IMG/VR virus record: IMGVR_UViG_3300031972_000768
Location: 1-31,791 of that record
Strand: one strand, 5' to 3'
DNA: 31,791 nt
DNA from: a virus
The notes beneath the pieces are model-generated. The model did no database searches and was not told the DNA's origin. It saw only the letters and a list, made by a program, of their open reading frames with translations. The position numbers and the translations under genes were made by a program. Positions 16,498-31,791 of this stretch are shown piece by piece. How positions within the stretch are numbered: the stretch's first letter is position 1; each line of letters starts with the position of its first letter.

Positions 16498-18134
16498 CTC
16501 AGCGTATCACCATCAACAAAAACAACATAATCAAGCTCACTACGCATAAGTGTGCTCAAAGCATCATCAACAGTTTGAACAAGCGGATCACCTGCGAGGT
16601 TGAAGCTAGTATTCATCAGTGCTGGTATACCTGTAAGCTTGTTAAACTCACGGATGATATCTGCCAGTTTACCTGATGAAACAGTCTGCACCCTGCAAGA
16701 TCCATCAGCATGAACGATGCCGCCAAGCTTGCTTAACGCCTCGCGTTTAACGTCAAACGATATAGTCATATCTGGCGCTGACTTTAAACCAAGAGAGTCA
16801 AAGTATTGATCAAAATACTCTTCAAGAATGACACCGGCAAACGGCCTGTACCACTCGCGCTTTTTGATCTTATTCATTTGATCCTGAGCATCAGGTATCG
16901 ATGGATCAAGCAGTATAGACCTATGACCAAGCGCCCTAGCGCCAGCCTCTGGTTTCCCCTCAAATATGGCAACGCTCTTACCTAGCGCAAGTAATTTAGC
17001 TACCTGCTCAGCAGTTGTTTCAGCACCACACATGGGCTCTTCTTCCCAGTAGTGGTAAAAGGTGTCGGTAAGTCGATCGGGCACTATGCCGAATCGTTCG
17101 AACCCATACAGCATAGCCGCACCTATGGTTAGGCCGGTATCGTCAGCAACAGGCTCAAAATAAAACTCAACATCAGGCATGCTCTTTATCAGGTGATTGT
17201 TCGCAACTACGTTCATCGCGTATCCACCAGACAGGCAGACCTTCTTTATGCCAGTTTCATCGACCCACTTTCTAATTAGGCGTAGCACCACATCTTGAGT
17301 CTGAAGCTGAACCTGCTTAGCTTTGTCTGCGTAAAATTGACAATTCTGAGGCACAAGCTCGCTTGTTACTCGATCCACATCATCAAAGAAGCAGTTGCCT
17401 AGCCACCAACGACCCTGTGGATCTGAGTCACCAATATCAGCAACCATCTTTGAGCTTATGGGTATGTCGTTATCATCGAACAGAGGCTCAAAGTCAGTCT
17501 TATCAGAGTAAGCCGCAAGACCCATTGTCTTGCCGTTCTCAAGTGGGTTTTGGTTGATCAGCGTTGTGGCACACTCATATGTCGATACGATACCGAACGG
17601 CGACCTTGCCTCTGTTGTACAGTTAAATTTACTTCGTATCTTTTGTGATACAACATTTGAATATTGAGTGCCTGTGTTTAGATTGAATCGTTTAAACACA
17701 GGAGCCCAGTGACTGCTCTTGTTGAACACGAAAACAGACTCTGCCTCTCTGGCGATCTCTGTGTTCTGCTCATCAAAGAATCCGCTACCATTCCTATCAA
17801 TCACGAATACCAGCGACTCATCAAAGCCACTGTTAAAATACGATATAGCCGCATGCGATGCATGGTGCGTCATGTCAGAGTACTGTTCGACTCTGCAGTC
17901 TAGCTTCTTTTTTATGTACTCTTTGAACAGCCTGCGCTCACTGGTTGCTGAGCAGAATAGAGCGACATCTATTTTACTTTTGTATAACTCAGATGCCTTA
18001 TCAATCGAAAAGAAGGGCATACCATCTCGCTTGTTGCCAGATAGGCGCTCTTCCTTACAAAAGAACTCAAGCTTGCCGTCATTGAAGATAGCAACAGAGC
18101 TATCATGGGTTGCATGGATTGCGGCAATTCTCAT
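16488..18134 (-). CDS. Carbamoyltransferase, NodU/CmcH/TobZ family
   Basis: 548 aa, full length for the family. The N-terminal YrdC-unlike, ASKHA-type part shows HATHDSSVAIFNDGK (H7, H10, D11), an EERLSG block, HHASHAA (H90, H91, H94) and VIDRNGSG (D113); then GLAAYS, LSGGYAMNVVANN (301-313) and EPVADDTGLTIGAA (327-340). The C-terminal part has EAGARALGHRSIL, REWYRPFA and MNTSFN. All match enzymes that carry carbamoyl phosphate through carbamoyl-adenylate to a hydroxyl of a sugar, antibiotic or nucleoside. In a phage, the target could be a surface sugar or a hydroxylated base; unknown. It ends the cargo cassette after two oxygenases. The stop overlaps the promoter of the tail hub. Confidence 0.92.
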   Translation of the reverse strand: MRIAAIHATHDSSVAIFNDGKLEFFCKEERLSGNKRDGMPFFSIDKASELYKSKIDVALFCSATSERRLFKEYIKKKLDCRVEQYSDMTHHASHAAISYFNSGFDESLVFVIDRNGSGFFDEQNTEIAREAESVFVFNKSSHWAPVFKRFNLNTGTQYSNVVSQKIRSKFNCTTEARSPFGIVSTYECATTLINQNPLENGKTMGLAAYSDKTDFEPLFDDNDIPISSKMVADIGDSDPQGRWWLGNCFFDDVDRVTSELVPQNCQFYADKAKQVQLQTQDVVLRLIRKWVDETGIKKVCLSGGYAMNVVANNHLIKSMPDVEFYFEPVADDTGLTIGAAMLYGFERFGIVPDRLTDTFYHYWEEEPMCGAETTAEQVAKLLALGKSVAIFEGKPEAGARALGHRSILLDPSIPDAQDQMNKIKKREWYRPFAGVILEEYFDQYFDSLGLKSAPDMTISFDVKREALSKLGGIVHADGSCRVQTVSSGKLADIIREFNKLTGIPALMNTSFNLAGDPLVQTVDDALSTLMRSELDYVVFVDGDTLRLV

Positions 18135-19421: not shown

Positions 19422-20014
19422 CCTGTAAGAATGTATTTTGTATTACTCATTGGCGGGTTGCCTCTATGAGTATGCGTCAGCCCAGATGGGAATATGACCA
19501 GAGTGCCTTTCTTTGGTTTGACGCGTTTAGGGAAGTATAGAAACTCAGTTTCGCCACCCTCTTCTACATCGTTCAGGTAAAGTATGTAAGCTAGAACCCT
19601 GCGAGATGATGCCGCATCGCCCTGTTCGCAGTGCCAGATATGGTATCCACCACCAACCATAGTACGCTGAATCTTCTGCGCCTGAATGGTGTGTGTATCC
19701 ATTGTGTGCAAGATATCGAACTGGTCAGAGTAAGCTTTATAGCCCACATCCCAGAATCGATCTATGAATGTTTTATGAAGGTCGCGTGAGTGTACGAATG
19801 ATAACTCTTCTTCAAAACCGCAAAGCGAGTCATCTTTCTTTTGGAACGCTGGGGTTTGTTGCCACTTCTGGCGATCTGTTGTAAACCCTGCCTCATCCAT
19901 CTTCTCAAAATAATCAATGACCTCATCGCACCACTCTGGCGAGATGAAGTCATCGATAATGCCCACAAAATTATGTGAGTGATAGCTAGGCTGGATCTCC
20001 TGCTTCTGAGTCAT
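19406..20014 (-). CDS. 2-oxoglutarate/Fe(II)-dependent oxygenase (first), P4H-like
   Basis: 202 aa from ATG at 20014, chosen since AGGAGA lies upstream (a TTG one codon earlier also fits). FVGIIDDFISPEWCDEVIDY is the common first helix-strand. The double-stranded beta-helix follows: YHIWHCEQGD (metal site H128-x-E130), LAYILYLNDVEEGGETEF, KGTLVIFPSGLTHTHRG (distal H181 or H183) and KYILTGW with K193 as the 2-oxoglutarate contact. An HxE in place of the more common HxD is seen in this phage subgroup. The gene starts inside the preceding small gene by 29 bases. Substrate unknown. Confidence 0.88.
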   Translation of the reverse strand: MTQKQEIQPSYHSHNFVGIIDDFISPEWCDEVIDYFEKMDEAGFTTDRQKWQQTPAFQKKDDSLCGFEEELSFVHSRDLHKTFIDRFWDVGYKAYSDQFDILHTMDTHTIQAQKIQRTMVGGGYHIWHCEQGDAASSRRVLAYILYLNDVEEGGETEFLYFPKRVKPKKGTLVIFPSGLTHTHRGNPPMSNTKYILTGWVEF

Positions 20015-20210
20015 CAACTGGTTCTCCTATGCTGTCATCCTGCACATTCTTCCACTCAGGTGTTTCGAATGTCATGGTTGATCTGTTTAGGATATCACCA
20101 ATTGCAACATTACCTCCAGTAATGTCAATAAACTCTATTGCAGAATGCATCTCAGGCTTTGTCACATGAAGTGACACTACTGAATCATCAACTCCGATTT
20201 GTGCCCACAT
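19986..20210 (-). CDS. 74-aa acidic protein between adhesin and oxygenase
   Basis: Starts at ATG in TAATG, overlapping the stop of the Gly-rich protein. Sequence blocks: MWAQIGVDDSVVSLHVTKPE, then IEFIDITGGNVAIGDILNRS, then an acidic C-terminus (GEPVDDSEAGDPA). Mixed alpha/beta with no known motif. Its last 29 bases are shared with the start of the first oxygenase, whose AGGAGA site lies inside it, so translation is likely coupled. Function not recognised. Confidence 0.65.
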   Translation of the reverse strand: MWAQIGVDDSVVSLHVTKPEMHSAIEFIDITGGNVAIGDILNRSTMTFETPEWKNVQDDSIGEPVDDSEAGDPA

Positions 20211-21013
20211 TAGCCGCCAAACTCCTCTACGTAAACAACACCCTGACGGCCTGAGCCACCGTAGTACTGTACTGAGTTATCACGGTATGCCGCGCCGCCG
20301 CCGCCAACACCATAGCCATCGCCTGAGTTGTTAGCATGTTCGCCGTTAGCACCATACGAATTTGCAGAGTTTGTTACAGATGAAACATCTGCAATAAGCG
20401 CACCATTGTATGATGTGTAATTCATCGTGCTAGCGCCACTTGTAGCACCAAGGCCGTTACCACCAGCATTACCAGTGTAATTTCCGATGTTGCCGCCTGC
20501 ACCAGTACCACCAGCACCACCGCCGCCCCAAGCTGATCTGTTCCAGTAAACAGAACCACCACCACCACCACCGTTAGCGGATGCGTATGAGCCGTATGAA
20601 GATGCACCGCCAGCACTAGCAGAACCGCCGCCACCGCCAACTGTTACAGATACGCTAGAACCAGCACCTATAGCCACCTCGGTAACAGCACCGCCGCCGC
20701 CACCGCCTGCGCCGCCACCGCCGCGAGCACCGTAACCAGAGTGTGAGCGACCATTGCCGCCGCCACCGCCGCCACCTTGAATCCATGCGCGCACAACATT
20801 AGTACCAGCCCCCACTACATGAGTAGAGCTAGATGTATAAGTTAGAGTGCGAATTGGTGGTGGTTGCTTACCGTAAAAGTCAGCCATCTGGAATTCACCA
20901 GAAGATGGCAGACCCTGACCACCGTAGCGCTCAGACATGCTGTAAGGAGCAGTGTCACCATAAGCCTGAGCAAGTGTTTTAAGTGATAGTTGTCCAGAGT
21001 TAGCAAAAGCCAT
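20210..21013 (-). CDS. Glycine-rich fibre-tip adhesin
   Basis: 267 aa, GGAGGG ribosome site. The N-terminal 55 residues (SGQLSLKTLAQAYGDTAPYS, then LPSSGEFQMADFYGKQPPP) are a module recurring at the start of phage tip proteins. From about residue 80 the chain is dominated by Gly runs of up to eight (IQGGGGGGGNG, GARGGGGAGGGGGGAV, GGGGGSVYWNR) separated by short Tyr/Asn/Ser-rich loops. This is the layout of T-even gp38-type adhesins, where Gly runs pack as polyglycine-II helices and loops read the receptor. The loops probably set host range. A very short C-terminal end (YVEEFGG) finishes it. Confidence 0.78.
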   Translation of the reverse strand: MAFANSGQLSLKTLAQAYGDTAPYSMSERYGGQGLPSSGEFQMADFYGKQPPPIRTLTYTSSSTHVVGAGTNVVRAWIQGGGGGGGNGRSHSGYGARGGGGAGGGGGGAVTEVAIGAGSSVSVTVGGGGGSASAGGASSYGSYASANGGGGGGSVYWNRSAWGGGGAGGTGAGGNIGNYTGNAGGNGLGATSGASTMNYTSYNGALIADVSSVTNSANSYGANGEHANNSGDGYGVGGGGAAYRDNSVQYYGGSGRQGVVYVEEFGG

Positions 21014-21015
21014 GA

Positions 21016-21828
21016 TTAGCCCTCCAGCTCTTCAACTCGCTTAGTAAGCTCTTTAATTGCTTCGATAAGCAAGCCATGCAGAGCATCATAGTTAACAACT
21101 TTGTATTCAACGCCATCGTCAGCTTTAAGCGGAAGTAGCTTCTCTGTTACAGCTTCTGGTAATACTGCCTCTACCTCTTGTGCAATAACACCGGCAGAAA
21201 CCTTGCCATCAGCTTTGTACTTGAAGGTGTAACCGCCTAAGCTGTTTACCTTATCAAGCGCGCCATCGATACCAACGATGTCATCCTTCAGGCGCTCATC
21301 TGAGATAGTTGTTGAGTATGCGATAACGTCACCATCACAGTGCAGGTCACCGTCATTCTCAAGGCGCATATCCACGTTACCATCAAGAACGAAGTCAATA
21401 TTGGTAGTGTTTACCATGATGTAATCACTGGTATCACGACCAATCGCATAAGCATCACCACGAAGGTCTGACTCGATGCTCACTGTAGATCCAGATACAT
21501 CGATACCTGCGCCAGCAATTGGTGCTGGGCTATCCCAAGTGAATGAGCCATCGCCATCAGATTTTAAGTACTGACCTGAAGTACCGTTACCAGATACGTT
21601 TAGCTCAGCCGCGCTTACAGAGTTATCAGTGATAGTCGAACCGTTAACTGTGCTTAGGTAGGCAAGAGCACCTAGGCTTGAGTTGATTGAAGCAATACCA
21701 TTGGCATTGGCTTTCATCTGTGAGTCAATTGTATCGAGGTTACTGTTGAGCTTAGTACCCCAAGTATCCTCTGATGCGCCTACCTCTGGCTTAACCAGAG
21801 AGTAGTTAGTAGTAGTAGTATCAGCCAT
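21016..21828 (-). CDS. Tail fibre with C-terminal peptidase S74 self-cleaving chaperone
   Basis: 270 aa. Residues 1-60 start with TNYSLVKPEVGASEDTWGTK, a phage fibre module. A beta-rich shaft or head runs to about 170. Then the S74 intramolecular chaperone begins: S176-D-E-R-L-K181 is the catalytic Ser/Lys pair, followed by VNSLGGYTFKYK, GVIAQEVEAVLPEAVTEKLL and the closing coiled coil LIEAIKELTKRVEELEG. In this family the chaperone trimerises the fibre and is cut off before the Ser. The gene is near two other fibre-like genes, so more than one fibre component is probable. Confidence 0.9.
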   Translation of the reverse strand: MADTTTTNYSLVKPEVGASEDTWGTKLNSNLDTIDSQMKANANGIASINSSLGALAYLSTVNGSTITDNSVSAAELNVSGNGTSGQYLKSDGDGSFTWDSPAPIAGAGIDVSGSTVSIESDLRGDAYAIGRDTSDYIMVNTTNIDFVLDGNVDMRLENDGDLHCDGDVIAYSTTISDERLKDDIVGIDGALDKVNSLGGYTFKYKADGKVSAGVIAQEVEAVLPEAVTEKLLPLKADDGVEYKVVNYDALHGLLIEAIKELTKRVEELEG

Positions 21829-23244
21829 TTAAGCTACCTCATTCCAAGTGCCGCCACTGGCTGACACATCATTCCAAGTTTCATTTTCTTTAGCCTGCCT
21901 CTCATACTTGAGCCTAGCATTAGCCTCAAATGAAGATTCTGCAGACATAGTCTGTGACGCGTTTCGCTCCCTAATGTACTCAATACCTACATTAGACTCA
22001 GATAATACATCTGCTGAACCGGCAACAGTTATGCGACCCTTAGCGGCAACATAAGCATTTGCCACTATTGTAACACCTGTGTTGCGAGTAGCGTAGGCGT
22101 TAACATTGTTACTGGCTACACCAGACACAGCGCCTTCACCAAGCTTAATAACCTCGCCGGATGCAGTGTTACTTGCCGCGCAGTAAGAGATCATTGTTGT
22201 TTGACGCTTGCGTATATACACAACTGTTAAAACAGAATCACCCATACTGATCGCACCAGATTCACCGATGCGCTGAGAGTCTGCATTTGTACCAGATGTG
22301 CCAGAGCCGCTTGCAACAATATCAACAACTGTCACAGCATTGGATGAACTGTCGCTATTTGCCGATACTATACCGCCACGCTCACCGACTTTCTGCGCCG
22401 ATACGCTTGATCCAGATCCTGCAGTGCTGACAGCGGATGCTGTACGAACCCTATTGAACGATGCGTGCTCACCAGACTGAGCATCAACAACAGCATCGCC
22501 AGCAAATGTAGCACGACCATCAATTGATGCGCCTGATTGCTCTGGGTATGCACTTGCACTATCTTCTCGCACACGCTCCATGTCTGATGAAACAACAGAC
22601 ACTGAGAATATGGCTGACTGGCCAATCAGTGATACCTGAGCATGAGCATTAGAGCCACTTGTAGCCGCTGTAGAGCCCCCAGAAAGAAGTATCTGCTCAG
22701 CACTAGCGCTAGACCCAGAAGTCGCCTGAGAATAGCCCACAGCGCCTCTGGTAGCATATGCATTAGTGCTGTTGGTAGCCTGCGCTGATACCTGAGCACC
22801 AGTTGTACGAATTCTTGAACCGTTGGCGTTAGTGTTTACGCTTGTGGTTGAAGAGCTGTTAACCAGTGCAGAGCCCTCTGGAACACGCCTAGCTGACGCG
22901 GCAACAGATGACTGAGAATCAATATTAGACGCTCTGCTTGCAGTCAGATATGCCGAGGCATTTACTGAAGAGTTTGCAGATGCGCTTGGAGCGACTTCAC
23001 GCTTACGCTCTACCGATGCACTGGTAGATGAAGATGCGCTCACAGATGCCGAAGCATCAACAACGGTAACGCCAGAGGCGCTAGCACCAGTAGTGGCACT
23101 AGCAACCGCTGGGATTACGTATTGACCAAAAGGCTTCTTGCCATACAGCGATACGCCATATGTAGAAGAAGAACTCTCTACGTGTGGATCGGCAGAGTAC
23201 AGTGAAGTGCTGTACTCGCCAACGCCGTAATAGCTGTAAGCCAT
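21829..23244 (-). CDS. Ser/Ala-rich repetitive fibre-like protein
   Basis: 471 aa. The N-terminal YSYYGVGEYSTSLYSADP and YGVSLYG repeat a Tyr-Gly motif. After that the protein consists of degenerate units of about 25-35 residues combining a charged strand (such as ERKREV, RVREDS, RKRQTT, IRERNA) with Ser/Ala/Thr/Asn alternation (SASANSSVNASAYLTASRAS). The C-terminus repeats TWNDVSASGGTWNEVA. Such alternation suits a beta-solenoid or trimeric fibre. Almost no Cys, Trp or Lys occurs in the core. The ribosome site is weak. Frames open on both strands here are shadows of the composition. Confidence 0.7.
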   Translation of the reverse strand: MAYSYYGVGEYSTSLYSADPHVESSSSTYGVSLYGKKPFGQYVIPAVASATTGASASGVTVVDASASVSASSSTSASVERKREVAPSASANSSVNASAYLTASRASNIDSQSSVAASARRVPEGSALVNSSSTTSVNTNANGSRIRTTGAQVSAQATNSTNAYATRGAVGYSQATSGSSASAEQILLSGGSTAATSGSNAHAQVSLIGQSAIFSVSVVSSDMERVREDSASAYPEQSGASIDGRATFAGDAVVDAQSGEHASFNRVRTASAVSTAGSGSSVSAQKVGERGGIVSANSDSSSNAVTVVDIVASGSGTSGTNADSQRIGESGAISMGDSVLTVVYIRKRQTTMISYCAASNTASGEVIKLGEGAVSGVASNNVNAYATRNTGVTIVANAYVAAKGRITVAGSADVLSESNVGIEYIRERNASQTMSAESSFEANARLKYERQAKENETWNDVSASGGTWNEVA

Positions 23245-23248
23245 TTAA

Positions 23249-23629
23249 TTAGTCCAGAGTGATATCTAGGTCACCAGCAGGTACGCGGAATACGTCACCT
23301 GTTTCGATAGTCTTAGCGCTTGATAGCGAAGCGTAAGCCATCAGGTTACCGCCAGATGCCGCATCGAATACACCAACGTGAGTTACAGTGCCGTAGTTAG
23401 CAGTAGCAGTTGGGTACTCAACAGCCGCTGAGTTAGAAGTAGTGTTGCCAGAAGTAGTGAAGGCAACAGTCTGACGTACGTAGCCGCCACCAGATACTTC
23501 AGTGCCACCACCTGAATCAGATGGAGCGGCAGTGTAAAGTGCCAAGTAAAGAGTTGAAGGTGCAGTGTAAGCCGCGCCGCCGAATACGTGATCTAGAATT
23601 TCAGTTTCTAGGTAGTTTGAAAAGCTCAT
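23249..23629 (-). CDS. Gp80-like small virion protein
   Basis: 126 aa, AGGAGC ribosome site; start overlaps the adaptor's stop (TAATG). The N-terminus (YLETEILDHVFGGAAYTAPS, then LYLALYTAAPSDSGGGTEVS) and GGYVRQTVAFTT are hallmarks of a small phage structural family (Gp80-like) with a beta-sandwich fold. In other phages it lies near tail or decoration genes; exact place in the particle not known. Between the adaptor and fibre genes it may connect fibres to the tail. Confidence 0.78.
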   Translation of the reverse strand: MSFSNYLETEILDHVFGGAAYTAPSTLYLALYTAAPSDSGGGTEVSGGGYVRQTVAFTTSGNTTSNSAAVEYPTATANYGTVTHVGVFDAASGGNLMAYASLSSAKTIETGDVFRVPAGDLDITLD

Positions 23630-24249
23630 TAGTAGCTCCTGATATTTAATTTAAGACCAGTGCCGCTAACAGTAGCTTTATTACCACTTGTGTTTAGTGC
23701 GGCTAGTTTTGATTGGTACATCCCAGCATATGCTGTAATGCGCTCATCATCCCGTAAGTATATCGCAGTTTCAAGTAAAACGGCATACAGGTACAAATCT
23801 GGAGCTTCAGTTAGCAACCAGTTAGATGTATTAGAGTCCGACAACGCCTCAATCTTCTGTGTGTATAACAGTTCAATGTCATATGTTGCGTCTGGTGTCG
23901 GATACATTTCGATCTCGCCAGCGATGTGAGCGTAGTACACAGGCTTACCTGATACATCGTCACCTTGGAAGCGTATGTCTTGCATACGATCGCGGCTAAC
24001 TAGGTTCATTGCATACGGTACAGTGTCTTTAACTGTAAGGCGTATAGTCTCAACCCAGTCTGTCGGTAGTGTTAGATACTGATCGTCGATCTCTGCCTGT
24101 GAGCGCTGTTCCATCTTCCAGTGACGTACATCACGGTTCAGATTGGCCTCTGCCATATCAATGAACGTATCGATAGTGCTAGTCAGGTCATCACGGTTAA
24201 GAAAATCCGCTACCGCTGACTTTAGCTCTGCATAAGTAGTAATCGCCAT
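23629..24249 (-). CDS. Head-tail adaptor, P22 gp4 / SU10 adaptor-like
   Basis: 206 aa. The N-terminus TTYAELKSAVADFLNRDDLT, IDTFIDMAEANLNRDVRHWK and the following DQYLTLPTDWVETIRL are typical of the podovirus adaptor family that docks under the portal and connects to the tail hub. The middle is beta-rich (PVYYAHIAGEIEMYPTPDAT) and the last part contains YLYAVLLETAIYLRDDERIT. Length agrees with the family (about 170-230 aa). It is preceded by a 20-aa basic peptide. Confidence 0.88.
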   Translation of the reverse strand: MAITTYAELKSAVADFLNRDDLTSTIDTFIDMAEANLNRDVRHWKMEQRSQAEIDDQYLTLPTDWVETIRLTVKDTVPYAMNLVSRDRMQDIRFQGDDVSGKPVYYAHIAGEIEMYPTPDATYDIELLYTQKIEALSDSNTSNWLLTEAPDLYLYAVLLETAIYLRDDERITAYAGMYQSKLAALNTSGNKATVSGTGLKLNIRSY

Positions 24250-24251
24250 TA

Positions 24252-24314
24252 TCAGCTACCTTTCTTGGTTTTCTTCATTTTACCAGAAGATCGTTTCTTT
24301 GTGCTACAGGCCAT
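24252..24314 (-). CDS. 20-aa lysine-rich micro-gene
   Basis: ATG at 24314 overlaps the TAA of the 177-aa gene (TAATG) and the TGA at 24254-24252 is two bases from the adaptor start (TGATAATG). The peptide is MACSTKKRSSGKMKKTKKGS: eight Lys and one Arg in 20 residues, no acidic residue. A CGGGGG stretch is upstream. Junction placement on both sides argues that it is translated; it may bind DNA or capsid, or be a coupling element. Confidence 0.55.
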   Translation of the reverse strand: MACSTKKRSSGKMKKTKKGS

Positions 24315-24847
24315 TAATATCTACCCCCGAGCGTTTTACCGTATATCCAAGGGATAGTTCTATCCAATAGGCCGGTGTTCTCGCCGCCGTAGTTTTCATA
24401 CTGCTGGCCTTCGCCTTTAGCTAGTCGATCCTTGGCAAACTGCACAGCTTGTTCGTACAGCTCTTTGTCTGATAAGCGGCCAACCTTAGCGTCATACGCC
24501 TGAGTTCCGGCAATGTTCTCCCAGAAGTCACCAATCGAGTCATTAGGTCGTGAGCCATAATCACCATACTGATAAGCCTTAGCAAGAGCTTCTACCTTTT
24601 GCGGGGTATCTGGCGAGCGAGCCATCATGTCGTAGCCGCCCATATAGTTCATAACCATATCAAGCAGACCACGATCTGTTCGCTTAACATCCTTCATTGA
24701 TGGATCCATTTCTCGGATCATGCTGGGCAGACTGTTGTAGTATGCAGTGTGCTCATCCTTACCTTTGAAGTCATCATCGAAACGGTACGCTTGGTCATCC
24801 CACCATTCGCCCATTCTGTAATCTCGGTATGGGTTATATTCAGACAT
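24314..24847 (-). CDS. 177-aa unknown protein of the packaging-adaptor region
   Basis: Begins MSEYNPYRDYRMGEWWDDQA and is rich in Tyr, Asp and Gly, with a helical middle (LLDMVMNYMGGYDMM, then KELYEQAVQFAKDRLAKGEG) and an Arg/Tyr end (WIYGKTLGGRY). No motif I know. Overlaps its neighbours by one base on both sides. A minor virion protein is plausible from place. Confidence 0.62.
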   Translation of the reverse strand: MSEYNPYRDYRMGEWWDDQAYRFDDDFKGKDEHTAYYNSLPSMIREMDPSMKDVKRTDRGLLDMVMNYMGGYDMMARSPDTPQKVEALAKAYQYGDYGSRPNDSIGDFWENIAGTQAYDAKVGRLSDKELYEQAVQFAKDRLAKGEGQQYENYGGENTGLLDRTIPWIYGKTLGGRY

Positions 24848-26229
24848 TATAATATCGCATCCAATAGTGAGGTACTGCTATTCACAACACCAGTTTTGCG
24901 TGACTGGCCTATATCTAATAGACCCTTAACAATTTCATCAAACATGGTCGGCACAGCCAAGCTGTAATCACCGCTAACGACATTGCGTTTAATCGGCGCA
25001 ATCTCACCGTAGTTGTAGATATCGGGGTTGCGATCCATGAATTCATCATACTGACCCATCAGGCTATCTAGCCCAACCTGAGCATTGTCCTGCTGAATAG
25101 CATCAAGCAATGACGCACCACCCACAACTGAAGGTGAACTAATGATTCCAGCTCTCTGTAGGTTCTTTAGGTGCTTATCAGTAATGATGCCGCCACGAGC
25201 ACCCATTTGCAGTGATCGCAGGTCTTGAGATGTTGGGTTCATTGGGTCTTCAACATAGCGCAGAGGATCGACACCTTTATGTTGCTTGATAGATCGTGGA
25301 TCTAAGAAGTACGCTGGGATGTCCTCTTTCAGTGTGCCCATAGGCTCACCGCTGATGTAGAACGGGTACGATGGATGGCGTGGATTAACACCGATACCTT
25401 TATCAAGGTCAACCATTGCCACGTTCTGCAGGTTACCCTCTTTAGCGTTAATCTGGCTTGGTTGCGCAATAGATAGACGAGCTTCACCTAAGCTTAGGCC
25501 ACCCTCATTACGGAATTGCACATCCATATCGCTCTTGAGCTTTTTGCGGATAGCATCAGGTGCTTTTTCAAACTGAGTGATCGACTCTGGGTTATCAACA
25601 CCTTTCCAGTTAGGGATGGATTCTTTGATCATGCTGTTCAGTGCTTTCTTCTCAGAAGCACCCATATTTGCTTGCGCAAACTTCAGCATGGTTTCGCCTG
25701 TCATTGATGCGAAGTCTGAACCAGTAGGTGCCATTCGCCAAGGCATAAGTATCGGGTTCTGACCTGTGCCCATGCCTTCACTGCGACCAATCTTATCATC
25801 ACGCATATACTTGCCTAGGTTCATAATTCCGCTCAATGCAGATTTAGCTGAGGCCCATACATGATCATCGTTGTTGAACATATAGTCTTGTCCGCCAAGT
25901 AAGCGAACTGGATCAGATAGGTCAACACCGTTGATACGAGCAAGCAGGCCGCCAGCATCTGTACGATCAGACATAGTGGTAATGAATGGTCTACCCTCTA
26001 GGTCGACGATAGAGATCTGATCTGGTGTAGAGGTGTTAGTACGCTCTACAACCGTCTCTAGATTCTGTGCTCGCTCTAGGTCACCACCACGCGGAACATA
26101 AACACCCTGTTTCTTAGATGCATCCTGATTCTTTTCTAGGTAACGCAGGTCTTCTAGACCAAGGCCACGCATAAGCGTCTCGTAGACAGCGTCAGTACCT
26201 TCACCTACGGTTTTGCTGATAACACCCAT
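24847..26229 (-). CDS. 460-aa virion-associated protein of unknown function
   Basis: Starts directly at the end of the large terminase (TAATG overlap). The N-terminus is helical (VISKTVGEGTDAVYETLMRG); the middle has mixed alpha/beta segments with PSYPFYISGEPMGTLKEDIP and VDLDKGIGVNPRH, reminiscent of enzyme-like domains in large marine phage virion proteins; the end contains a twice-repeated SLLDAI (about residues 373 and 453), a Pro/Ala-free linker between them. I cannot assign an activity. Location suggests a packaged protein or head factor. Confidence 0.6.
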   Translation of the reverse strand: MGVISKTVGEGTDAVYETLMRGLGLEDLRYLEKNQDASKKQGVYVPRGGDLERAQNLETVVERTNTSTPDQISIVDLEGRPFITTMSDRTDAGGLLARINGVDLSDPVRLLGGQDYMFNNDDHVWASAKSALSGIMNLGKYMRDDKIGRSEGMGTGQNPILMPWRMAPTGSDFASMTGETMLKFAQANMGASEKKALNSMIKESIPNWKGVDNPESITQFEKAPDAIRKKLKSDMDVQFRNEGGLSLGEARLSIAQPSQINAKEGNLQNVAMVDLDKGIGVNPRHPSYPFYISGEPMGTLKEDIPAYFLDPRSIKQHKGVDPLRYVEDPMNPTSQDLRSLQMGARGGIITDKHLKNLQRAGIISSPSVVGGASLLDAIQQDNAQVGLDSLMGQYDEFMDRNPDIYNYGEIAPIKRNVVSGDYSLAVPTMFDEIVKGLLDIGQSRKTGVVNSSTSLLDAIL

Positions 26230-27521
26230 TAGTACATACCCTGTATGTTTCGTTTAATAGCGCCACCCTTCCAAGAGTTACGCTCTCTGTAACCTACTGC
26301 CAAGTAACGGAATGAATCCGCTGGATGGCTCGACCAATCGTGTTCAGGTCTGCCTTTCCATGTCATGCGCTGGTCATCGTATTCTCGATGGTATGCTCTG
26401 AGGGCTTCTACTAGATGGTCGCACTTCTCGGCATCGAACCAGCATAACGGTAACATGGACCGTACAGCTTGAATGCCATCGTCTACTTGAAGTTGAGGTG
26501 CGATGGTGATCGGATTAATTCCTAGAGATTGTAACGTCTCGTAGCGTGATTTACCACTACCTAGCTCCTTGACCCTAACGTCATGCGGCAGGATGTGCTG
26601 ATCGTATCGATAGCCTTTGTCCTGTAGTACACGAGCATAGTGATCTAGACCTACACCTGAGTTCTCATAGAAGTCTATGATGCGAACCTCTGAGCCGTGG
26701 AACTGTGCGAACGTAATCGCTGTGCTGTCACCTATACCCAAGTCCCATGCAGTCACTACCGGTAGTGCTCTATCGTATGGAACGATGGTAATACGACCTT
26801 CGTCACGAGCATCACGCAGTTCGATGTTATAATATGCACCGTCATGGTGAGTTAAGAAATTTCCGAGCCAAATCCATTCATATGAATCAGGGCGTTTCTT
26901 CTTATCTTCTAGACGCTCTTGGTTAAGTACCTCTGGGAACCAGTCGTTGTCACTGTAGTTGATCTCTACGATCTTACAGTCATCTGGTGTCTCTTCACGG
27001 AATCGCTTATGCGTAGGTGATAGCTTTGACTCAGGGTTCCAGCTTACCCAGATCTCTGAATCCTCTTCACGGACAGTAGGTATTAGCTTTGCCCATGCCA
27101 TTTCACTGACTGTCTCTGCCTCATCAATCCAACAGATGTGGATAAAGCCTCGACCCTTGAGTGAGTCAAGGTTACGGCGCAAACCGGCAAAGGCGTATGA
27201 GATGCGACCATCCTTAGTGCGGATGTAGTTCTGTCCTATGTCGTAGAATGACTCTAGGTATTTGTCAGACATGATCGCCTGCTTGATCTCCTCAAACGAA
27301 GAGTCAGCTAGACTGTTCATGAACTCACGAGCACACAGGATGATGCCAGACTTACCTGCCTTGGCTAACTCCATGCCTCGTACAGCAGTCATTATGGCAA
27401 ACGATCTAGTCTTACCTGATCCACGACCACCATAGGCACAACGGTAGCGAGCCTTACCATTAAAGATATTGTACATCTTGGCCGGTAGCTGAACCCTGAG
27501 CTTACCCTTACTCATCACCAT
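26229..27521 (-). CDS. terL: Terminase large subunit, PBSX/Terminase_3 type
   Basis: 430 aa from ATG at 27521 (ATG at 27515 is an alternative). ATPase: Walker A GGRGSGKT (31-38), Walker B with acid pair CWIDEAE (130-136), and the motif WVSWNPE (158-164) acting as coupling motif. Nuclease: TAWDLGIGDSTA (D260, D265) and the C-terminal HDWSSHPADSFRYL with the third acid group. This is the engine that cuts and packs DNA through the portal. It overlaps the small subunit gene by 14 bases, as in many phages. Confidence 0.95.
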   Translation of the reverse strand: MVMSKGKLRVQLPAKMYNIFNGKARYRCAYGGRGSGKTRSFAIMTAVRGMELAKAGKSGIILCAREFMNSLADSSFEEIKQAIMSDKYLESFYDIGQNYIRTKDGRISYAFAGLRRNLDSLKGRGFIHICWIDEAETVSEMAWAKLIPTVREEDSEIWVSWNPESKLSPTHKRFREETPDDCKIVEINYSDNDWFPEVLNQERLEDKKKRPDSYEWIWLGNFLTHHDGAYYNIELRDARDEGRITIVPYDRALPVVTAWDLGIGDSTAITFAQFHGSEVRIIDFYENSGVGLDHYARVLQDKGYRYDQHILPHDVRVKELGSGKSRYETLQSLGINPITIAPQLQVDDGIQAVRSMLPLCWFDAEKCDHLVEALRAYHREYDDQRMTWKGRPEHDWSSHPADSFRYLAVGYRERNSWKGGAIKRNIQGMY

Positions 27522-27894
27522 AGTCTCTCTGCGATGGCTCGATACCTACAAGCTCAATGCCTATAGGTGACATACTGCCGTCAGATGATGACATATCCTG
27601 CTCTATGCGATCAGAGTATCCGTGCTTGGTCATGAGTAGCTTAGTGATAGGTGATACGAACTCACCAGTAAGGCCGCTATCGATCAGCAAAGCCTCTTGT
27701 TCTGCCTGTATAGCCTCTAATATGTCCTGAAACTCAGGGTATTCATCACGCCATACATACAACTGTGATCGTGCCACGTTGAGGATACGAGCAAGCCTAG
27801 CAGTGCTTGGTACTACACCATGCTTCTTGAAGTTGTCTAAGTATTCATATGCTTTGTCTAGTACGTCTTGTCCGTACTTGGTTGGTCTGCTCAC
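27508..27894 (-). CDS. terS: Terminase small subunit, P22 gp3-like
   Basis: 128 aa, GTG start with a perfect AGGAGG four bases upstream. The N-terminal HTH region (VVPSTARLARILNVARSQLYVWRDEYPEF, residues about 26-54) binds DNA in this family; FQDILEAIQAEQEALLIDSG is the oligomerisation helix, and TKLLMTKHGYSDRIEQD is the typical end of the DNA-packaging protein gp3 family. It recognises the packaging start site. Directly precedes the large subunit. Confidence 0.88.
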   Translation of the reverse strand: MSRPTKYGQDVLDKAYEYLDNFKKHGVVPSTARLARILNVARSQLYVWRDEYPEFQDILEAIQAEQEALLIDSGLTGEFVSPITKLLMTKHGYSDRIEQDMSSSDGSMSPIGIELVGIEPSQRDYGDE

Positions 27895-28030
27895 GATGCC
27901 TCCTAGTGCTTAACAGCGTCCCAAGATATTTGCAAGCATTGTATCAGTAATCACGGACTAGTACACACTCCAGTCTATTAATGGGTGTTTTAAGAGCGAA
28001 AGCCTCGTCATTGCTGGCCTTGAGGTGTAT
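27895..28030 (-). promoter_or_regulatory. Gap upstream of the terminase genes
   Basis: 136 bases without a gene. It holds the terS ribosome site (AGGAGG) and a weak TACAAT (27944-27939) that lacks a good -35. TGTGTAC occurs at 27967-27961 (- strand), recalling the TGTGTAYA repeats at the left end. The inverted repeat TGAGGT/ACCTCA (28021-28026, 28041-28046) overlaps the end of the upstream gene; with no T-run I do not call it a terminator. A packaging site could lie here, but I cannot see one. Confidence 0.3.
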
Positions 28031-28354
28031 TTAATCCCAAACCTCACTTAACTGGCTTTTTAGCTCCCTATCCTCTATCAGGTTATCTATAAACCTTCGA
28101 TCTATATTGTTTCCGTGAAGGAACTTTTTCTTGCAGTTTTTTGCCCTAGTGCTTCTTAACTTACACTTCCTACAGGTGCTCTTCTGCTTTACATAATACA
28201 GATGGGTTCCACACTTAGGGCATGGCTTATCCCTCCTATACCAAGTATCACCTCGACTTAGGGCCATGTCGTAATCATGTGCATTAGCCTCATCCATTCT
28301 ATGTCTGCGCATGGTGTCTGTTGGGCCGTACTTCTTTAGAGCTTCAGGTATCAT
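28031..28354 (-). CDS. 107-aa zinc-ribbon protein
   Basis: GGAGGGG precedes the ATG. Residues 45-64 make a CxxC...CxxC ribbon (CPKC at 45-48 and CRKC at 61-64), flanked by a basic region (KLRSTRAKNCKKKF) that would contact nucleic acid. The N-terminus is helical with Arg-His pairs. No nuclease core is seen, although the Asp/His-rich start (DEANAHDYDM) resembles parts of small HNH-associated proteins. Last of the small-gene chain before the terminase. Confidence 0.68.
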   Translation of the reverse strand: MIPEALKKYGPTDTMRRHRMDEANAHDYDMALSRGDTWYRRDKPCPKCGTHLYYVKQKSTCRKCKLRSTRAKNCKKKFLHGNNIDRRFIDNLIEDRELKSQLSEVWD

Positions 28355-28374
28355 TAGCCACCCCTCCGTAAAAC

Positions 28375-28542
28375 CTATTTATTCTTATTCTTCCAGTGTT
28401 TTGCACAATCTAATTTATGCCCCTTGGCTGAGTCATTGCCACACTCTGGGCATGGCCATTGTGCTCCGAAGATCTTCTTGAAGTTCTCTTCAAACTTCTT
28501 CTGATCCTTGTGGTGTCCACCACTATCGTATGACCAGTTCAT
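28375..28542 (-). CDS. 55-aa zinc-binding micro-protein
   Basis: ATG at 28542 overlaps the TGA of the upstream gene (ATGA), with AGGAGG just ahead; TAG at 28377-28375. The C-terminal half holds CPEC, then C and H in LDCAKHW, giving a CxxC...CxxxH zinc site. The N-terminal half is basic and helical (KDQKKFEENFKKIFGAQW). Too small for the usual length cut-offs, yet well supported by its ribosome site, its overlap and its cysteine pattern. Confidence 0.7.
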   Translation of the reverse strand: MNWSYDSGGHHKDQKKFEENFKKIFGAQWPCPECGNDSAKGHKLDCAKHWKNKNK

Positions 28543-28730
28543 ACATCCTCCTGTGCGGCTTGTATCATGGCTTTGTATGCTTTCACTTCGTCAAGCGTCT
28601 CGCCATCCACATGGGTATCCCACCAAGCATCAATCATCTTCTCTGTAGGCTCTACAGGCACAATGACATACCCTTCAGGTAATCCTAGCCCGTATGCCTC
28701 TACTTGTTCCCACCATTCTTCAAATGTCAT
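28539..28730 (-). CDS. 63-aa small phage protein
   Basis: ATG at 28730 (after a GTG codon), AAGGAGAAG upstream. The peptide starts MTFEEWWEQVEAYGLGLPEG and contains VIVPVEPTEKMIDAWWDTHV, a short module often seen in small phage proteins of unknown role (PTEKM followed by a Trp-rich helix). Overlaps the genes on both sides. Confidence 0.7.
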   Translation of the reverse strand: MTFEEWWEQVEAYGLGLPEGYVIVPVEPTEKMIDAWWDTHVDGETLDEVKAYKAMIQAAQEDV

Positions 28731-28902
28731 CACTCTTCTCCTTCAAAGGTACATGAGCAAAGCATGGCCCAGACAAGTCAGCTAGAGATACTGGCAAGTC
28801 AGACTCAACAGCTTCATTGCGTACATCTTCACTGTACTTACGTGGACACTCTCTGTTAGCACAAGAGGCTATACAGAATGTCATGTCTCTATAGCTAATC
28901 AT
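28720..28902 (-). CDS. 60-aa cysteine-containing small phage protein
   Basis: ATG at 28902 within TGATG of the previous stop. MISYRDMTFCIASCANRECP places cysteines at 10, 14 and 19, followed by an acidic helix and LADLSGPCFAHVPL with a fourth Cys. This Cx3Cx4C pattern recurs in short hypothetical proteins of many phages, possibly a metal site. Function unknown. Confidence 0.7.
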   Translation of the reverse strand: MISYRDMTFCIASCANRECPRKYSEDVRNEAVESDLPVSLADLSGPCFAHVPLKEKSDDI

Positions 28903-29087
28903 CACTCTTCCTCCACTACAGGTACATCACGCCATTCTTCAGACACAATCCTACCTCCGTAATAGCTAGCCTCGTTGTGCTTCCACTTCTGCTGAAGGAT
29001 GCGTAGTTTATGTGGATGCAAAAAGTTATCTTGTGGAGCCTCACGCTCAACAAACCGTAGTTCATTAGTTGGTATCCAGTTACTCAT
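28902..29087 (-). CDS. 61-aa small unknown protein
   Basis: ATG at 29087 overlaps the TGA of the 43-aa gene (ATGA) with GGAGGAG upstream. The sequence contains LRFVEREAPQDNFLHPHKLR and ILQQKWKHNEASYYGG, with a C-terminal RDVPVVEEE. The RFVER and ILQQKW pieces suggest an edge-strand plus helix seen in short phage proteins. No assignment. Confidence 0.65.
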   Translation of the reverse strand: MSNWIPTNELRFVEREAPQDNFLHPHKLRILQQKWKHNEASYYGGRIVSEEWRDVPVVEEE

Positions 29088-29215
29088 ATCTCCTCCATTG
29101 TAAAGCGGTTGTAACGGTTCTTTAGTGACTGGCGTAAGTCATGTGCATCGGTTGCACTAATGACAGTCGTGTACTTGCCACCATCTTCCCAGTATTGGAT
29201 ACGGTACTGTTTCAT
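29084..29215 (-). CDS. 43-aa small unknown protein
   Basis: Starts at ATG 29215, overlapping the TGA of the alpha-CTD-like gene (ATGA), and ends in TGA 29086-29084. MKQYRIQYWEDGGKYTTVIS is a strand-loop-strand, followed by a helix ATDAHDLRQSLKNRYNRFTM, the pattern of a beta-beta-alpha mini-domain. Its 3' end carries the GGAGGAG site of the next gene. Confidence 0.62.
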   Translation of the reverse strand: MKQYRIQYWEDGGKYTTVISATDAHDLRQSLKNRYNRFTMEEI

Positions 29216-29655
29216 AACAACTCCTCAAAATCCTCAAATGACAGGTGGTCAATGTCGTGGCTATCTAAAACCTTTAGCAGATACCTGTGGTACTTGCCGA
29301 CATTCTGAACGTAGTCATACATAACTCTGTTATTTTCAGCTATTGACTCATTATTTTTAGATAGGTTTTCTATCAATTCTTTTTGGCCTAGATACTTACC
29401 GTTAATACAATCGATAGTATCGTGCGCCCTTTTTAGCTTAAACCCTATCTCAGCGGTTCTATAATCGGCTGGGACTTTGAGATTAAATAACGCAATTATC
29501 TCCCTATCTGCCTTGCGACCGATGTTTGGCAAGTTAGAAAACGTAAAGTAAGTGTAGTAATAGCTTACAATCTTATCGCGTGACTCAAGACCTGCCGCCT
29601 TTAGAGCGTTCTGGCTTCTGACCGATAACTGATCAATTAATCTTGGCTGACTCAT
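29212..29655 (-). CDS. RNA polymerase alpha-CTD-like domain protein with coiled coil
   Basis: 147 aa from ATG at 29655, selected because GGAGGG lies seven bases upstream and the frame above it overlaps another gene. Residues 6-55 (LIDQLSVRSQNALKAAGLES, then SNLPNIGRKADREIIAL) line up with the alpha subunit C-terminal domain of bacterial RNA polymerase. Counterparts of its UP-element contacts are present: R13 (R265 in E. coli), N16 (N268), N44 (N294), G46 (G296) and K48 (K298); S299 is Ala. Two extra residues lie between helices. After residue 60 comes a charged helical region (LGQKELIENLSKNNESIAEN). It may bind promoter DNA or compete with host alpha. The related helix-hairpin-helix fold of other DNA-binding proteins is the main alternative. 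Confidence 0.72.
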   Translation of the reverse strand: MSQPRLIDQLSVRSQNALKAAGLESRDKIVSYYYTYFTFSNLPNIGRKADREIIALFNLKVPADYRTAEIGFKLKRAHDTIDCINGKYLGQKELIENLSKNNESIAENNRVMYDYVQNVGKYHRYLLKVLDSHDIDHLSFEDFEELL

Positions 29656-29741
29656 AGTACGCCCTCCAGCCAAGCGGCAAAGATAAATAGACCAAGTATT
29701 ACAGTCATGGCGTATGGGACGCTCTCCATCCAGAATCTCAT
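29652..29741 (-). CDS. 29-aa single-span membrane micropeptide
   Basis: ATG at 29741 overlaps the TGA of the 119-aa gene (ATGA), and the TGA at 29654-29652 overlaps the ATG of the alpha-CTD-like gene (ATGA). Sequence MRFWMESVPYAMTVILGLFI then FAAWLEGVL: one membrane helix of about 18 residues with positive N-end and an acidic residue near the C-end. The four-base overlaps at both ends make chance very unlikely. Target unknown. Confidence 0.7.
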   Translation of the reverse strand: MRFWMESVPYAMTVILGLFIFAAWLEGVL

Positions 29742-30097
29742 AGCACTTCACTCCAGCCTTCAGGCATACACATCAGTCTATTCCAGATCTGGAACCCGTC
29801 ATCCTGTACGACCATGATCTCTACTACGTCACCTACTGACAGTGAACGAGTCTTGCCTTGGATAAGCACACGTTCTACTTCCATGCGTGGGTTGTTAGAC
29901 AGGTCGAATGCGTACTCTGCCGCCTCTTCATCTTCCAGCTCAGTGTAGAAGCTACCTACTGGCTCCCAGTTAAGGTGGTTGTCGCTGTACTGATCAAGTA
30001 GATCAGAGTAACCATCAGCAGGTGAACCCTTGACCTGAGCTAACAGGTTTGGGCGGTACTGCTCTTCATTGGCTAGGTATAAAGTAACTGTGTTCAT
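29738..30097 (-). CDS. 119-aa small protein, possibly YodL-like
   Basis: GGAGGAG ribosome site. The N-terminus (VTLYLANEEQYRPNLLAQVK) has beta strands; DEEAAEYAFDLSNNPRMEVE followed by RSLSVGDVVEI resembles the YodL-type module seen in proteins of phages and plasmids (a helix, an aspartate-rich turn, then SLSVGDVV). The end (FQIWNRLMCMPEGWSEVL) completes the sheet. Likeness is modest and the biochemical role of the module is not established. Confidence 0.68.
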   Translation of the reverse strand: MNTVTLYLANEEQYRPNLLAQVKGSPADGYSDLLDQYSDNHLNWEPVGSFYTELEDEEAAEYAFDLSNNPRMEVERVLIQGKTRSLSVGDVVEIMVVQDDGFQIWNRLMCMPEGWSEVL

Positions 30098-30123
30098 ATC
30101 AACTCCTCCAGAAGAAGCGAACC

Positions 30124-30342
30124 TTAACGGCTCGCAACCCCAAATTTATAATTATTGCTTCTGCTTAGGTTCATCAGCTCTTGGAACTCATCCATCATTG
30201 CAAACACTACAGGAGAAAAGCGACCATCTGCCTGAGCTAGGATTGCGTAAGTAACCTCACGACCATCCAGAATCTTGAACAGTGCTTTCTCAGCGTTATC
30301 GTAAGTAGCGTAAGAGTGTGATTCGTTAAGTAGCTGGTTCAT
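30124..30342 (-). CDS. 72-aa small protein, first of the leftward small-gene chain
   Basis: AAAGGGGAA precedes the ATG. MNQLLNESHSYATYDNAEKA is followed by LFKILDGREVTYAILAQADG and the C-terminal part with RFSPVVFAMMDEFQELMNLS: a compact alpha/beta domain with no recognised family. It follows a good promoter-like sequence and so is probably the first product of this transcript. Confidence 0.68.
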   Translation of the reverse strand: MNQLLNESHSYATYDNAEKALFKILDGREVTYAILAQADGRFSPVVFAMMDEFQELMNLSRSNNYKFGVASR

Positions 30343-30373
30343 ATCTATTCCCCTTTATTTAAGATATGAGTTC

Positions 30374-30407
30374 ATTATACACGCATTAATATCTGTTGCA
30401 ACACTAG
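30374..30407 (-). promoter_or_regulatory. Sigma70-like promoter with CTAGTGT element, for the small-gene chain
   Basis: On the - strand TTGCAA (30401-30396) and a perfect TATAAT (30379-30374) are 16 bases apart. CTAGTGT (30407-30401) touches the -35 on its upstream side, and GTG precedes the -10 as in the promoter at 16462. It lies in a 75-base gap between the primase-like gene and the 72-aa gene, with the -10 box 32 bases before that start codon. Confidence 0.75.
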
Positions 30408-30417
30408 TCGCGGCAAA

Positions 30418-30819
30418 TTAATTTTCGTTTGCCCTTGATCGCATCTCAGCAATACCTTGTAGCCTTGAATGCGCCAATTGTACACGCCTCTTATCGGCTA
30501 GTGTGGTTGGCGGTGTTACCTTAGCCATCTCGACTATTAACTTATCCTGCACCTCTTTCTCTTGCATCTCACGACTAATCACTGGGCGCTTGTAGTCAGA
30601 GTCTGGTGCGAATACCTCATCCTTGTTTAGTCCAAGAGCATCAGCCACATCGACAGCGCTACAACCACATACAAAACAATATCCACCAACAGATCCATCG
30701 CGTCTCTCCGATAACATAAGGTTTAAGTCTTTACCATTGTGTACAGGACATGGCGCCCTGTACTTGTTGCCGAACTTCTTATAGCGTGGCAATGCCGCCA
30801 ATACTGACTCAATACTCAC
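30418..30819 (-). CDS. Stand-alone primase zinc-finger domain protein
   Basis: 133 aa, GTG start inside the end of the helicase gene (11-base overlap). CPVH (C24, H27) and CFVC (C48, C51; C53 adjacent) give the CHC2-type site of DnaG or T7-like primases, preceded by FGNKYRAPCPVHNGKDLNLM. No TOPRIM or RNA-polymerase domain follows: the rest is a basic helical tail (LADKRRVQLAHSRLQGIAEM). The catalytic half may be encoded outside the window, so this could be one part of a split primase, or a regulator derived from it. Confidence 0.85.
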   Translation of the reverse strand: MSIESVLAALPRYKKFGNKYRAPCPVHNGKDLNLMLSERRDGSVGGYCFVCGCSAVDVADALGLNKDEVFAPDSDYKRPVISREMQEKEVQDKLIVEMAKVTPPTTLADKRRVQLAHSRLQGIAEMRSRANEN

Positions 30820-31789
30820 TTACTCGACCGTCCATTGATTTCTTAACTTTGTGTGCCCACGCTATCTGGCGCGAAGTGATCCACGACTGTACCTCTGGAG
30901 TGACATTCTCCATAGGTAGATCGTGCTTGTTTCCGTACCCGTACCAAGTGCCGAATTTTTCACGGTACTTATGGTCTGCCCAGTTTGGACTGTAGTTCTT
31001 CTTATGGGCATAGTTTTTAAGCTGTGCGTAGAAGGAGATCTTATCTTCCTTAGTCGCTACCTTGGCCTCAGCCTTCTCTAGCTTCTTAAGCTCTTCCTGA
31101 GTGGTCTCAATCTGCTCCTTAATAGGGATCTCATAGCCACACGAACAGCGGATACCTACGAACTCACGGTAACACTGCGGGCAGTCGCGTACCTTTGGCT
31201 CTGACTTCTCTTCATCTTTATTGGTCAGCTTCTTCTCATTGTACTTGTCTGAACCATCGTCCAGCTTGGTTGGGTACCAGTCTTCAGCAAACCCAAAGCG
31301 AGACACGTTCTGAGCGTGATCCAATACGATACACTCTGTCTTACCTTCACAGGTCCTAAGCCCTCTTCCAATTCTTTGGATATAAGTGGAAATTGACCTC
31401 GTCGGATAAGCATCTAAAATACAGCTCGTCTGTGGGCTGTCCCAGCCGGTATTCAGTAGGCGCGAGCAAGACAGGATAGTGAACTCACCATTGTTATGAG
31501 CCTCGATGATATCGTCACGCTCTTCGTGGTCCATGTACCCATCAACGTGCTCTGCTGAGATACCTGCCTCTTGGAACTCTCTGACCAATGCCTTGCTATG
31601 AATAATTGAAGGAGTAAACGCTACCGTCTGACGGCCTTTGGCAAGTTTGAGCCAGTTATCGATAACGCCGCCTACAAGCTGTGTATCGCCTTCTACAGCT
31701 TCAGCCAATGCAGATGGATCATAGTCAGTAACACCGTTGACTGTACGGCTCTTTACGCCCTCTACAGAGATCTTGTGACCACCGTAGTA
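30809..31789 (-). CDS. SF2 DNA helicase, C-terminal part (runs off the window)
   Basis: The frame is open to the right edge of the window; about 326 residues are visible. RecA-like domain 2 shows VAFTPSIIHSKALVREF (motif IV region), FTILSCSRLLNTGWDSPQTSC (motif V) and STYIQRIGRGLRTCEGK (motif VI with the Arg finger region) of DEAD/DEAH helicases of the RAD3/UvrW/type III Res group. A zinc ribbon CPQC...CSCGY follows, then a coiled coil and a basic aromatic C-terminus (NWADHKYREKFGTWYGYGNK) known from phage helicases of this kind. DNA replication or recombination is the expected role. Confidence 0.92.
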   Translation of the reverse strand, partial: YYGGHKISVEGVKSRTVNGVTDYDPSALAEAVEGDTQLVGGVIDNWLKLAKGRQTVAFTPSIIHSKALVREFQEAGISAEHVDGYMDHEERDDIIEAHNNGEFTILSCSRLLNTGWDSPQTSCILDAYPTRSISTYIQRIGRGLRTCEGKTECIVLDHAQNVSRFGFAEDWYPTKLDDGSDKYNEKKLTNKDEEKSEPKVRDCPQCYREFVGIRCSCGYEIPIKEQIETTQEELKKLEKAEAKVATKEDKISFYAQLKNYAHKKNYSPNWADHKYREKFGTWYGYGNKHDLPMENVTPEVQSWITSRQIAWAHKVKKSMDGRVSEY

Positions 31790-31791
31790 AT

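Follow-up and report, generated by a model that had tools for sequence, protein, structure and literature searches.

How does a phage come to carry a run of very small genes whose stops and starts overlap, and are the joints between such genes translation signals alone or also the places at which genes are exchanged? This question is posed by a marine phage represented by a linear IMG/VR virus record of 31,791 bases, the whole of which is referred to here as the window. The terminase large subunit, the portal and other structural proteins are encoded on the minus strand, and the chain of small genes lies between a primase-zinc-finger-like gene (30819-30418, weak matches) and the gene of the terminase small subunit (27894), a name given from its position and from relatives of the L002/L058 type. 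A megablast search with window bases 20000-31791 against a collection of 50,697 phages returned no matching record. Relatives of the terminase reach at best 50% identity in that collection and up to 99% in IMG/VR, and a terminase search of genome contigs gave nine loci at 36-69% identity, from which no host was assigned. The L-numbers used below denote related IMG/VR contig loci; L121 is L002, L123 is L092, and L133 is the contig of L092. Elsewhere in the window, a carbamoyltransferase-like gene (16488-18134; phrog_1601, E 3e-111) lies amid structural genes, and a plus-strand gene at 1033-1317, which matches PHROGs annotated as nucleotide kinase, has a relative that belongs to the chain of L093.

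The first-pass annotation had described at least seven small genes linked by overlapping stops and starts, and all seven joints are where it had placed them, on the minus strand. Five of the seven are the four-base ATGA (29741, 29655, 29215, 29087 and 28542), as it had also noted, and the other two are a TGATG with a 1-nt overlap at 28902 and an 11-nt overlap at 28730. Every joint thus overlaps (7/7), as looked for in a lambda-nin-type chain of small co-directional genes. When open reading frames of at least 25 aa are linked by 1- or 4-nt overlaps, the longest run comprises six frames in the block versus 0-3 in 500 dinucleotide shuffles of the same block. Four-base joints account for 5/7 in the chain versus 3/26 elsewhere in the window, where consecutive minus-strand open reading frames of 100 aa or more were compared (Fisher P 0.004). 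The Shine-Dalgarno (SD) sites of the chain starts fall within the last codons of the preceding gene; by pairing energy, the starts of all eight genes between and including the 119-aa and 55-aa ones rank within the best 7.3% of the 762 minus-strand ATGs and seven of them within the best 1.8%, the weakest being that of the 29-aa gene (best 7.3%). The chain extends leftwards by a 107-aa gene (28354-28031) after a gap of 20 nt. Upstream of the unit's first gene lies a sigma70-like promoter candidate (TTGCAA-16-TATAAT, 30374-30401, minus strand, 10/12 matches), which is insignificant on its own because the scan returned five sites against a shuffle mean of 7.1. Bases 30381-30339 match L093:5254-5296, which precedes another first gene, at 84% identity, this leader homology being a single 43-nt match. 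Promoter or terminator signals were dropped as proof of an operon, since their counts are no higher than in shuffles.

From right to left, all on the minus strand, the unit begins with a 72-aa gene (30124-30342, SD -7.8), which has no relative among the loci searched and whose frame is without conservation support. The 119-aa gene g119 (29738-30097, SD -9.3) follows; its last 33 codons are kept in L009 (pS 0.47, pN 0.095), and in the phage collection it has one weak match, in Variovorax phage V45v66 (E 3e-5). The 29-aa micro-gene g29 (29652-29741) has 100% amino acid identity in L009 and further relatives in L007, L008, L010, L011 and L087 (60-75%). It contains one membrane-span-like stretch, judged by eye, and its tail codons LEGVL hold the SD for the next gene. 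Membrane-span-like peptides of 28-37 aa occur in several chains (window 29652-29741, L090:4704-4793, L128:3034-3120 and 2066-2179), most of them with no obvious sequence similarity between chains, and at L008:5190-5455 a relative of the 29-aa peptide comes directly before a 59-aa protein whose start resembles a signal peptide. The 147-aa protein g147 (29212-29655) is alpha-CTD-like over residues 9-55 (PF03118) and has no close relative in viral contigs or the phage collection. The 43-aa micro-gene g43 (29084-29215), with relatives in L009, L126, L127, L128, L148 and L149, carries the SD for its neighbour in the tail codons MEEI. That neighbour, the 61-aa gene g61 (28902-29087), has relatives in L002, L092, L109, L126 and L127; compared with L002:350-553 and L092:3822-4001, its ends are near-identical (NWIPTNELRFV ... 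EWRDVPxVEEE) and its middle is strongly divergent.

The 60-aa four-cysteine protein g60 (28720-28902, N-terminus MISYRDMTFC) matches phrog_23031 (E 1.4e-10) and has an annotated relative, AGR47974.2 of Sinorhizobium phage phiM12. An AlphaFold2 model of its family reached a pLDDT of 65.5, and a Foldseek search with this model gave no match at E<=0.001. The first 31 nt of g60 (28872-28902) are 94-97% identical in distant phages (L094, L096-L100) in which the protein is only about 40% identical overall. Next comes the 63-aa gene g63 (28539-28730; phrog_5913, E 2.8e-9), which is 73% identical in L002 and opens with a common MTFEEW start that heads different bodies in L088-L093 and L126. The 55-aa micro-gene g55 (28375-28542) is zinc-ribbon-like, by a weak match to Zn_ribbon_8 that falls under the cut-off. 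The unit's end before the terminase small subunit is the 107-aa gene g107 (28031-28354), which has a zinc-ribbon-like motif (Zn_ribbon_RPB9, E 2e-4, 21.4 bits, under the 25.2 cut-off) and is 100% identical in L002 and 99% in L009.

Are frames of this size genes at all? Comparison of g29 with L009 reveals seven synonymous and no non-synonymous differences (P 1e-5), and g43 has a pN/pS of 0.24 against the same locus (P 7e-7). For g55 the ratio is 0.05 against L009 (P 4e-12) and 0.20 against L093 (P 1e-9), and for g60 it lies between 0.02 and 0.17 in comparison with five relatives; such a signal of purifying selection is absent when these stretches are read in shifted frames. The terminase large subunit has a pN/pS of 0.27 against L009, and the small frames are therefore at least as constrained as this one large neighbour. 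No clear purifying selection was found for g61 against L002 (pN/pS 0.93, P 0.44; 0.65, P 0.02 against L092) or for g63 against L002 (0.62, P 0.09). That the micro-frames are chance open frames yielding no products is highly improbable. Three of them fall short of 60 aa and the SD of one is weaker, as might be expected of chance frames, but the purifying selection on the 29-, 43-, 55- and 60-aa frames, the SDs, the chain length relative to shuffles and the annotated relative of g60 all stand against it. As judged from these codon changes, the four micro-frames are real genes. The first-pass annotation had pointed out that three genes (29, 43 and 55 aa) fall under usual annotation limits and that micro-genes not kept as frames in relatives would speak against its chain; all three are conserved as frames, and because these and the 60-aa frame are under purifying selection, that objection falls away.

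The same gene families recur in related phages in altered order. Before the terminase, L002 carries a 93-aa gene, g61, a 44-aa gene, g63, g55 and g107, and L009 carries g119, g29, g43, a 186-aa gene, g55 and g107; other loci with altered order are L088-L093, L109, L126-L128, L148 and L149. In a joint list curated by hand from the output of a simple gene caller in 11 sequences, with L109, L128, L148, L149 and the L007/L008/L010/L011 loci standing outside the counts, 52 joints represent 40 different family pairs, and g43 has six different right-hand neighbours. In related phages the chain families are spread over five genomic places or more. In L088, members are found between thymidylate synthase (Thy1) and the small chain of ribonucleotide reductase; in L092 they are flanked by DNA polymerase A and a 5'-3' exonuclease; those of L093 lie downstream of Sak/YqaJ recombination genes and a MazG-like gene (MazG by eye); and those of L126 and L127 sit within a gene for RNA polymerase. 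The L093 contig holds them in two places, with g60/g55 upstream of a helicase and g43 before the terminase.

What recurs between different genes is the joint itself, GGAGGAAGAGTGATG, in which ribosome site, stop and start are combined, and GGAGGAAGAGTG directly before the start is common to joints whose genes differ on both sides. Of 1161 joint pairs with different genes on both sides, 46 are identical over at least 11 nt running up to the start codon, with jointly inherited joints counted separately; these 46 are not independent events because many common joints descend from one ancestral g61 tail. The controls were starts of long genes with good SDs, from which pairs with similar downstream sequence had been removed, and at least 8 nt was common in 0 of 1945 such pairs (longest 6). 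The same short sequence is thus found at the boundaries of different genes, in pairs that are non-independent. The g61/g60 joint GTGGAGGAAGAGTGATGA (VEEE stop, SD and TGATG; 28899-28916, minus strand) is an 18-mer carried by 18 viral contigs. Four of these, which are related, have it as the link from the g61 tail to four genes, namely g60 (L123, that is L092), a relative of g63 (L109), another MTFEEW gene (L110) and a 44-aa gene (L121, that is L002), and L123 has a second copy before an MTFEEW gene. The remaining 14 have it between other gene pairs, some of them mutually homologous, and the string therefore also arises or persists elsewhere. The string GAGGAAGAGTG is kept before g60 in L089, L090 and L093, where the gene caller saw no gene directly upstream. 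The g60/g63 joint GAAGGAGAAGAGTGATGACATTTGA (28720-28744, minus strand), with its 11-nt overlap, has one base less than GGAGGAAGAGTGATGA of L090 and L093. The overlap at 28730 looks like the same joint minus one base, a difference that shifts the frame and turns the g60 tail from KEEE into KEKSDDI.

In one pair of relatives, breakpoints fall at these joints. L126 and L127 are 93-97% identical in three blocks; the former has the order g61, MTFEEW gene, g43 and the latter g61, g43. The extra 97-codon cassette of L126 lies between exact 15-nt copies of GGAGGAAGAGTGATG (2937-2951 and 3230-3244), and L127, in which the cassette is absent, has one copy. Homology stops at L126 position 2951 and resumes at 3230-3382 and at 3754, all of them at joints, so that in this one contig pair the breakpoints coincide with the boundary sequence. 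In L133, exact 19-nt copies surround a two-gene cassette of g60 and a 53-aa gene. The repeats of L126/L127 and L133 are, on comparison of the sequences, what recombination between direct repeats would be expected to leave. Within the window, a repeat finder detected no such repeat pair of at least 14 nt at two joints, and no recombinase was identified among about 22 window proteins scanned. Upstream of its block, L093 encodes a YqaJ exonuclease together with a protein for single-strand annealing (SSAP_Sak, E 2e-33). Rad52-like phage recombinases are reported to recombine diverged sequences in lambda-like phages (PMC3945230).

The cassettes of L126 and L127 lie within a T7-type RNA polymerase. 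In both contigs the polymerase is divided into one part of 258 residues (RPOL_N, E 5e-12) and another of 553 residues (RNA_pol, E 4e-105), and the chain stands between them, with five micro-genes in L126 (2003-5416) and two in L127 (3917-6662). The two contigs come from different metagenome records, and an assembly error is therefore less likely. Out of hundreds of phage records, 12 (three of them RefSeq copies of others) are common to both top-25 lists, and in all 12 the parts lie next to each other, their gap or overlap never exceeding 25 bases; Vibrio phage 1.204.O has one annotated gene at the polymerase. The L126/L127 polymerase is a candidate for a natural split T7-type RNA polymerase and is worth assaying.

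The frames, the joints, the reshuffled order and one cassette present or absent with exact flanking repeats are matters of observation; the reading of them that we favor, and consider probable, is a coupled micro-gene chain like that of lambda nin whose joints double as crossover points. The ribosome-binding site would be contained in the final codons of the preceding gene, which are mostly acidic (EEE, MEEI, LEGV, QEDV), with the stop overlapping the next start. A ribosome ending one micro-gene would then restart at the overlapping start with the aid of the SD, as the anatomy suggests and as has been established for overlaps of this kind in other organisms (PMC6728339). The SD-stop-start joints common to different gene pairs would at the same time act as microhomologies in direct repeat, where single micro-genes could be inserted, removed or exchanged by homologous or annealing recombination with the overlap left intact, as the breakpoints indicate. 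Against the crossover part of this reading, a purine-rich SD-stop-start of such a shape could converge under selection. This is the substance of an alternative that we regard as possible but rather unlikely, namely an ordinary dense accessory operon with illegitimate gain and loss of genes, of which only products with an in-frame SD-stop-start survive, such that the likeness of the joints reflects selection for good coupling together with common descent and no recombination site is involved. Overlapping pairs are common in prokaryotes, at about 15% of pairs in most groups (PMC6728339), the joint is under functional constraint, and GTGGAGGAAGAGTGATGA stands between other genes in other contigs too. 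Against an ordinary operon speak the exact 15- and 19-nt direct repeats around cassettes, the free spacer letters AAGAG that are common too, beyond SD and start, and the fact that g60 keeps GAGGAAGAGTG where no gene adjoins upstream.

A wider form of the crossover reading, which we hold to be unlikely as yet, is that the joint acts as a cassette port of general use that needs no enzyme of its own, admitting micro-genes at any coupled joint in phages that share a habitat. Cassettes would bring their own coupling and could therefore settle in an essential gene at a domain boundary. If so, the system would to some extent resemble an integron, but one that lacks an integrase and relies on the ordinary annealing recombination of phages, and a single-subunit RNA polymerase would have been turned into a two-chain enzyme.

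What the chain does for the phage is a separate matter, and the first-pass annotation had proposed near-equal amounts of every product and a block for host takeover or anti-defence. The former is not supported as put. Of 14 overlapping pairs studied in E. coli and Haloferax, 13 were strictly coupled (PMC6728339), with wide variation in the SD contribution, and output differences of 5-10-fold are possible in pairs coupled by another mechanism; strict equal stoichiometry was dropped on these published figures. The latter, in the form of an operon whose g147 redirects host RNA polymerase, is compatible with a chain whose joints double as crossover points, and we judge it a tentative, rather improbable proposal. 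Residues 9-55 of g147 match PF03118 (RNA_pol_A_CTD) with E 3.1e-5 and 24.1 bits, a marginal pass of the 23.8 cut-off; alignments to alpha subunits in the PDB are weak, and in that to 8syi_A (E 0.24) the R, N, K, N, G and K positions are kept. The single-sequence AlphaFold2 model of g147 has a mean pLDDT of 47.8, too poor for use. An RNA polymerase alpha-CTD protein is annotated in Erythrobacter phage vB_EliS-L02 (PMC9127768). By the PF03118 match g147 is a candidate transcription modifier and the one chain protein linked to transcription, which speaks for host takeover together with the quick gene turnover and several small zinc-ribbon-like or cysteine-rich proteins. Against it, none of 10 chain proteins matched PADLOC-DB at E<=0.1, in a library of defence rather than anti-defence models, the alpha-CTD domain was found in 0 of the 50 related records searched (50 of 80 loci), and a place directly before the terminase is no obvious early region. 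The idea of host takeover or anti-defence thus keeps weak support, from g147. The fast-changing gene content would fit an accessory block of this general sort, and the chain proteins most likely have host-specific accessory functions. Beyond its alpha-CTD-like N-terminal region, g147 has about 90 residues of unassigned kind. The 186-aa protein of L009, 42% identical to g147 over 38 aa and similar to an alpha-CTD by eye, was considered as an alpha-CTD protein and rejected, having no Pfam or PDB match.

Among known systems, the nearest likeness is to the lambda nin region. Both consist of small accessory genes with 4-nt overlaps, which account for 7 of the 11 joints from O to Q in lambda (NC_001416), and both have one 11-nt joint (ninF/ninG in lambda) and start contexts within the upstream gene. 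They differ in that the chain families here occupy several genomic places, one of them within a polymerase gene. No nin homologue was found among the Pfam, NCBIfam or PHROG matches of 10 chain proteins, and membership of lambda nin was dropped for lack of homology; the chain would therefore work like lambda nin without being a member of it. Kroger and Hobom are said to have published a study on ninR in 1982. For the polymerase, the nearest counterpart is N4 RNA polymerase II, likewise a T7-type polymerase made as two proteins. In N4 (PMC4496689) the DX2GR region belongs to gp15 (269 aa) and the palm and fingers to gp16 (404 aa), whereas the split in L126/L127 separates RPOL_N (258 aa) from the catalytic part (553 aa), with micro-genes between the halves.

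The joints themselves recall the boundary sequences of lambdoid phages (Clark 2001; Susskind and Botstein 1978, as cited in PMC3029335), short common sequences at gene boundaries that were proposed as crossover points for mosaic exchange. In our system, unlike those described there, the boundary is the SD-stop-start joint itself, it flanks single micro-genes, and the cassette-free relative has one copy. PMC3029335 also describes gene 68 of the mycobacteriophages Island3 and Brujita, a small gene present or absent through recombination between similar gene ends of about 50 bp. That is one case in one place, whereas the joint here recurs across gene pairs and contigs and comprises only 12-19 nt. 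Whether phage mosaic joints arise via short boundary sequences or by illegitimate exchange has been asked for a long time, and at most such joints no boundary sequence can reportedly be identified (PMC3029335). Here they are visible and double as translation signals, and in one close pair a cassette is present or absent with the expected repeat count. The formation of mosaic joints becomes directly testable in this system. Micro-genes of 29-60 aa, easily missed in annotation, emerge as conserved, mobile units, and the phage alpha-CTD-like protein g147 is offered as a test object. Chains of this kind are known from phage lambda; in the phages compared here the apparent exchange is open to direct reading, even within a polymerase gene.
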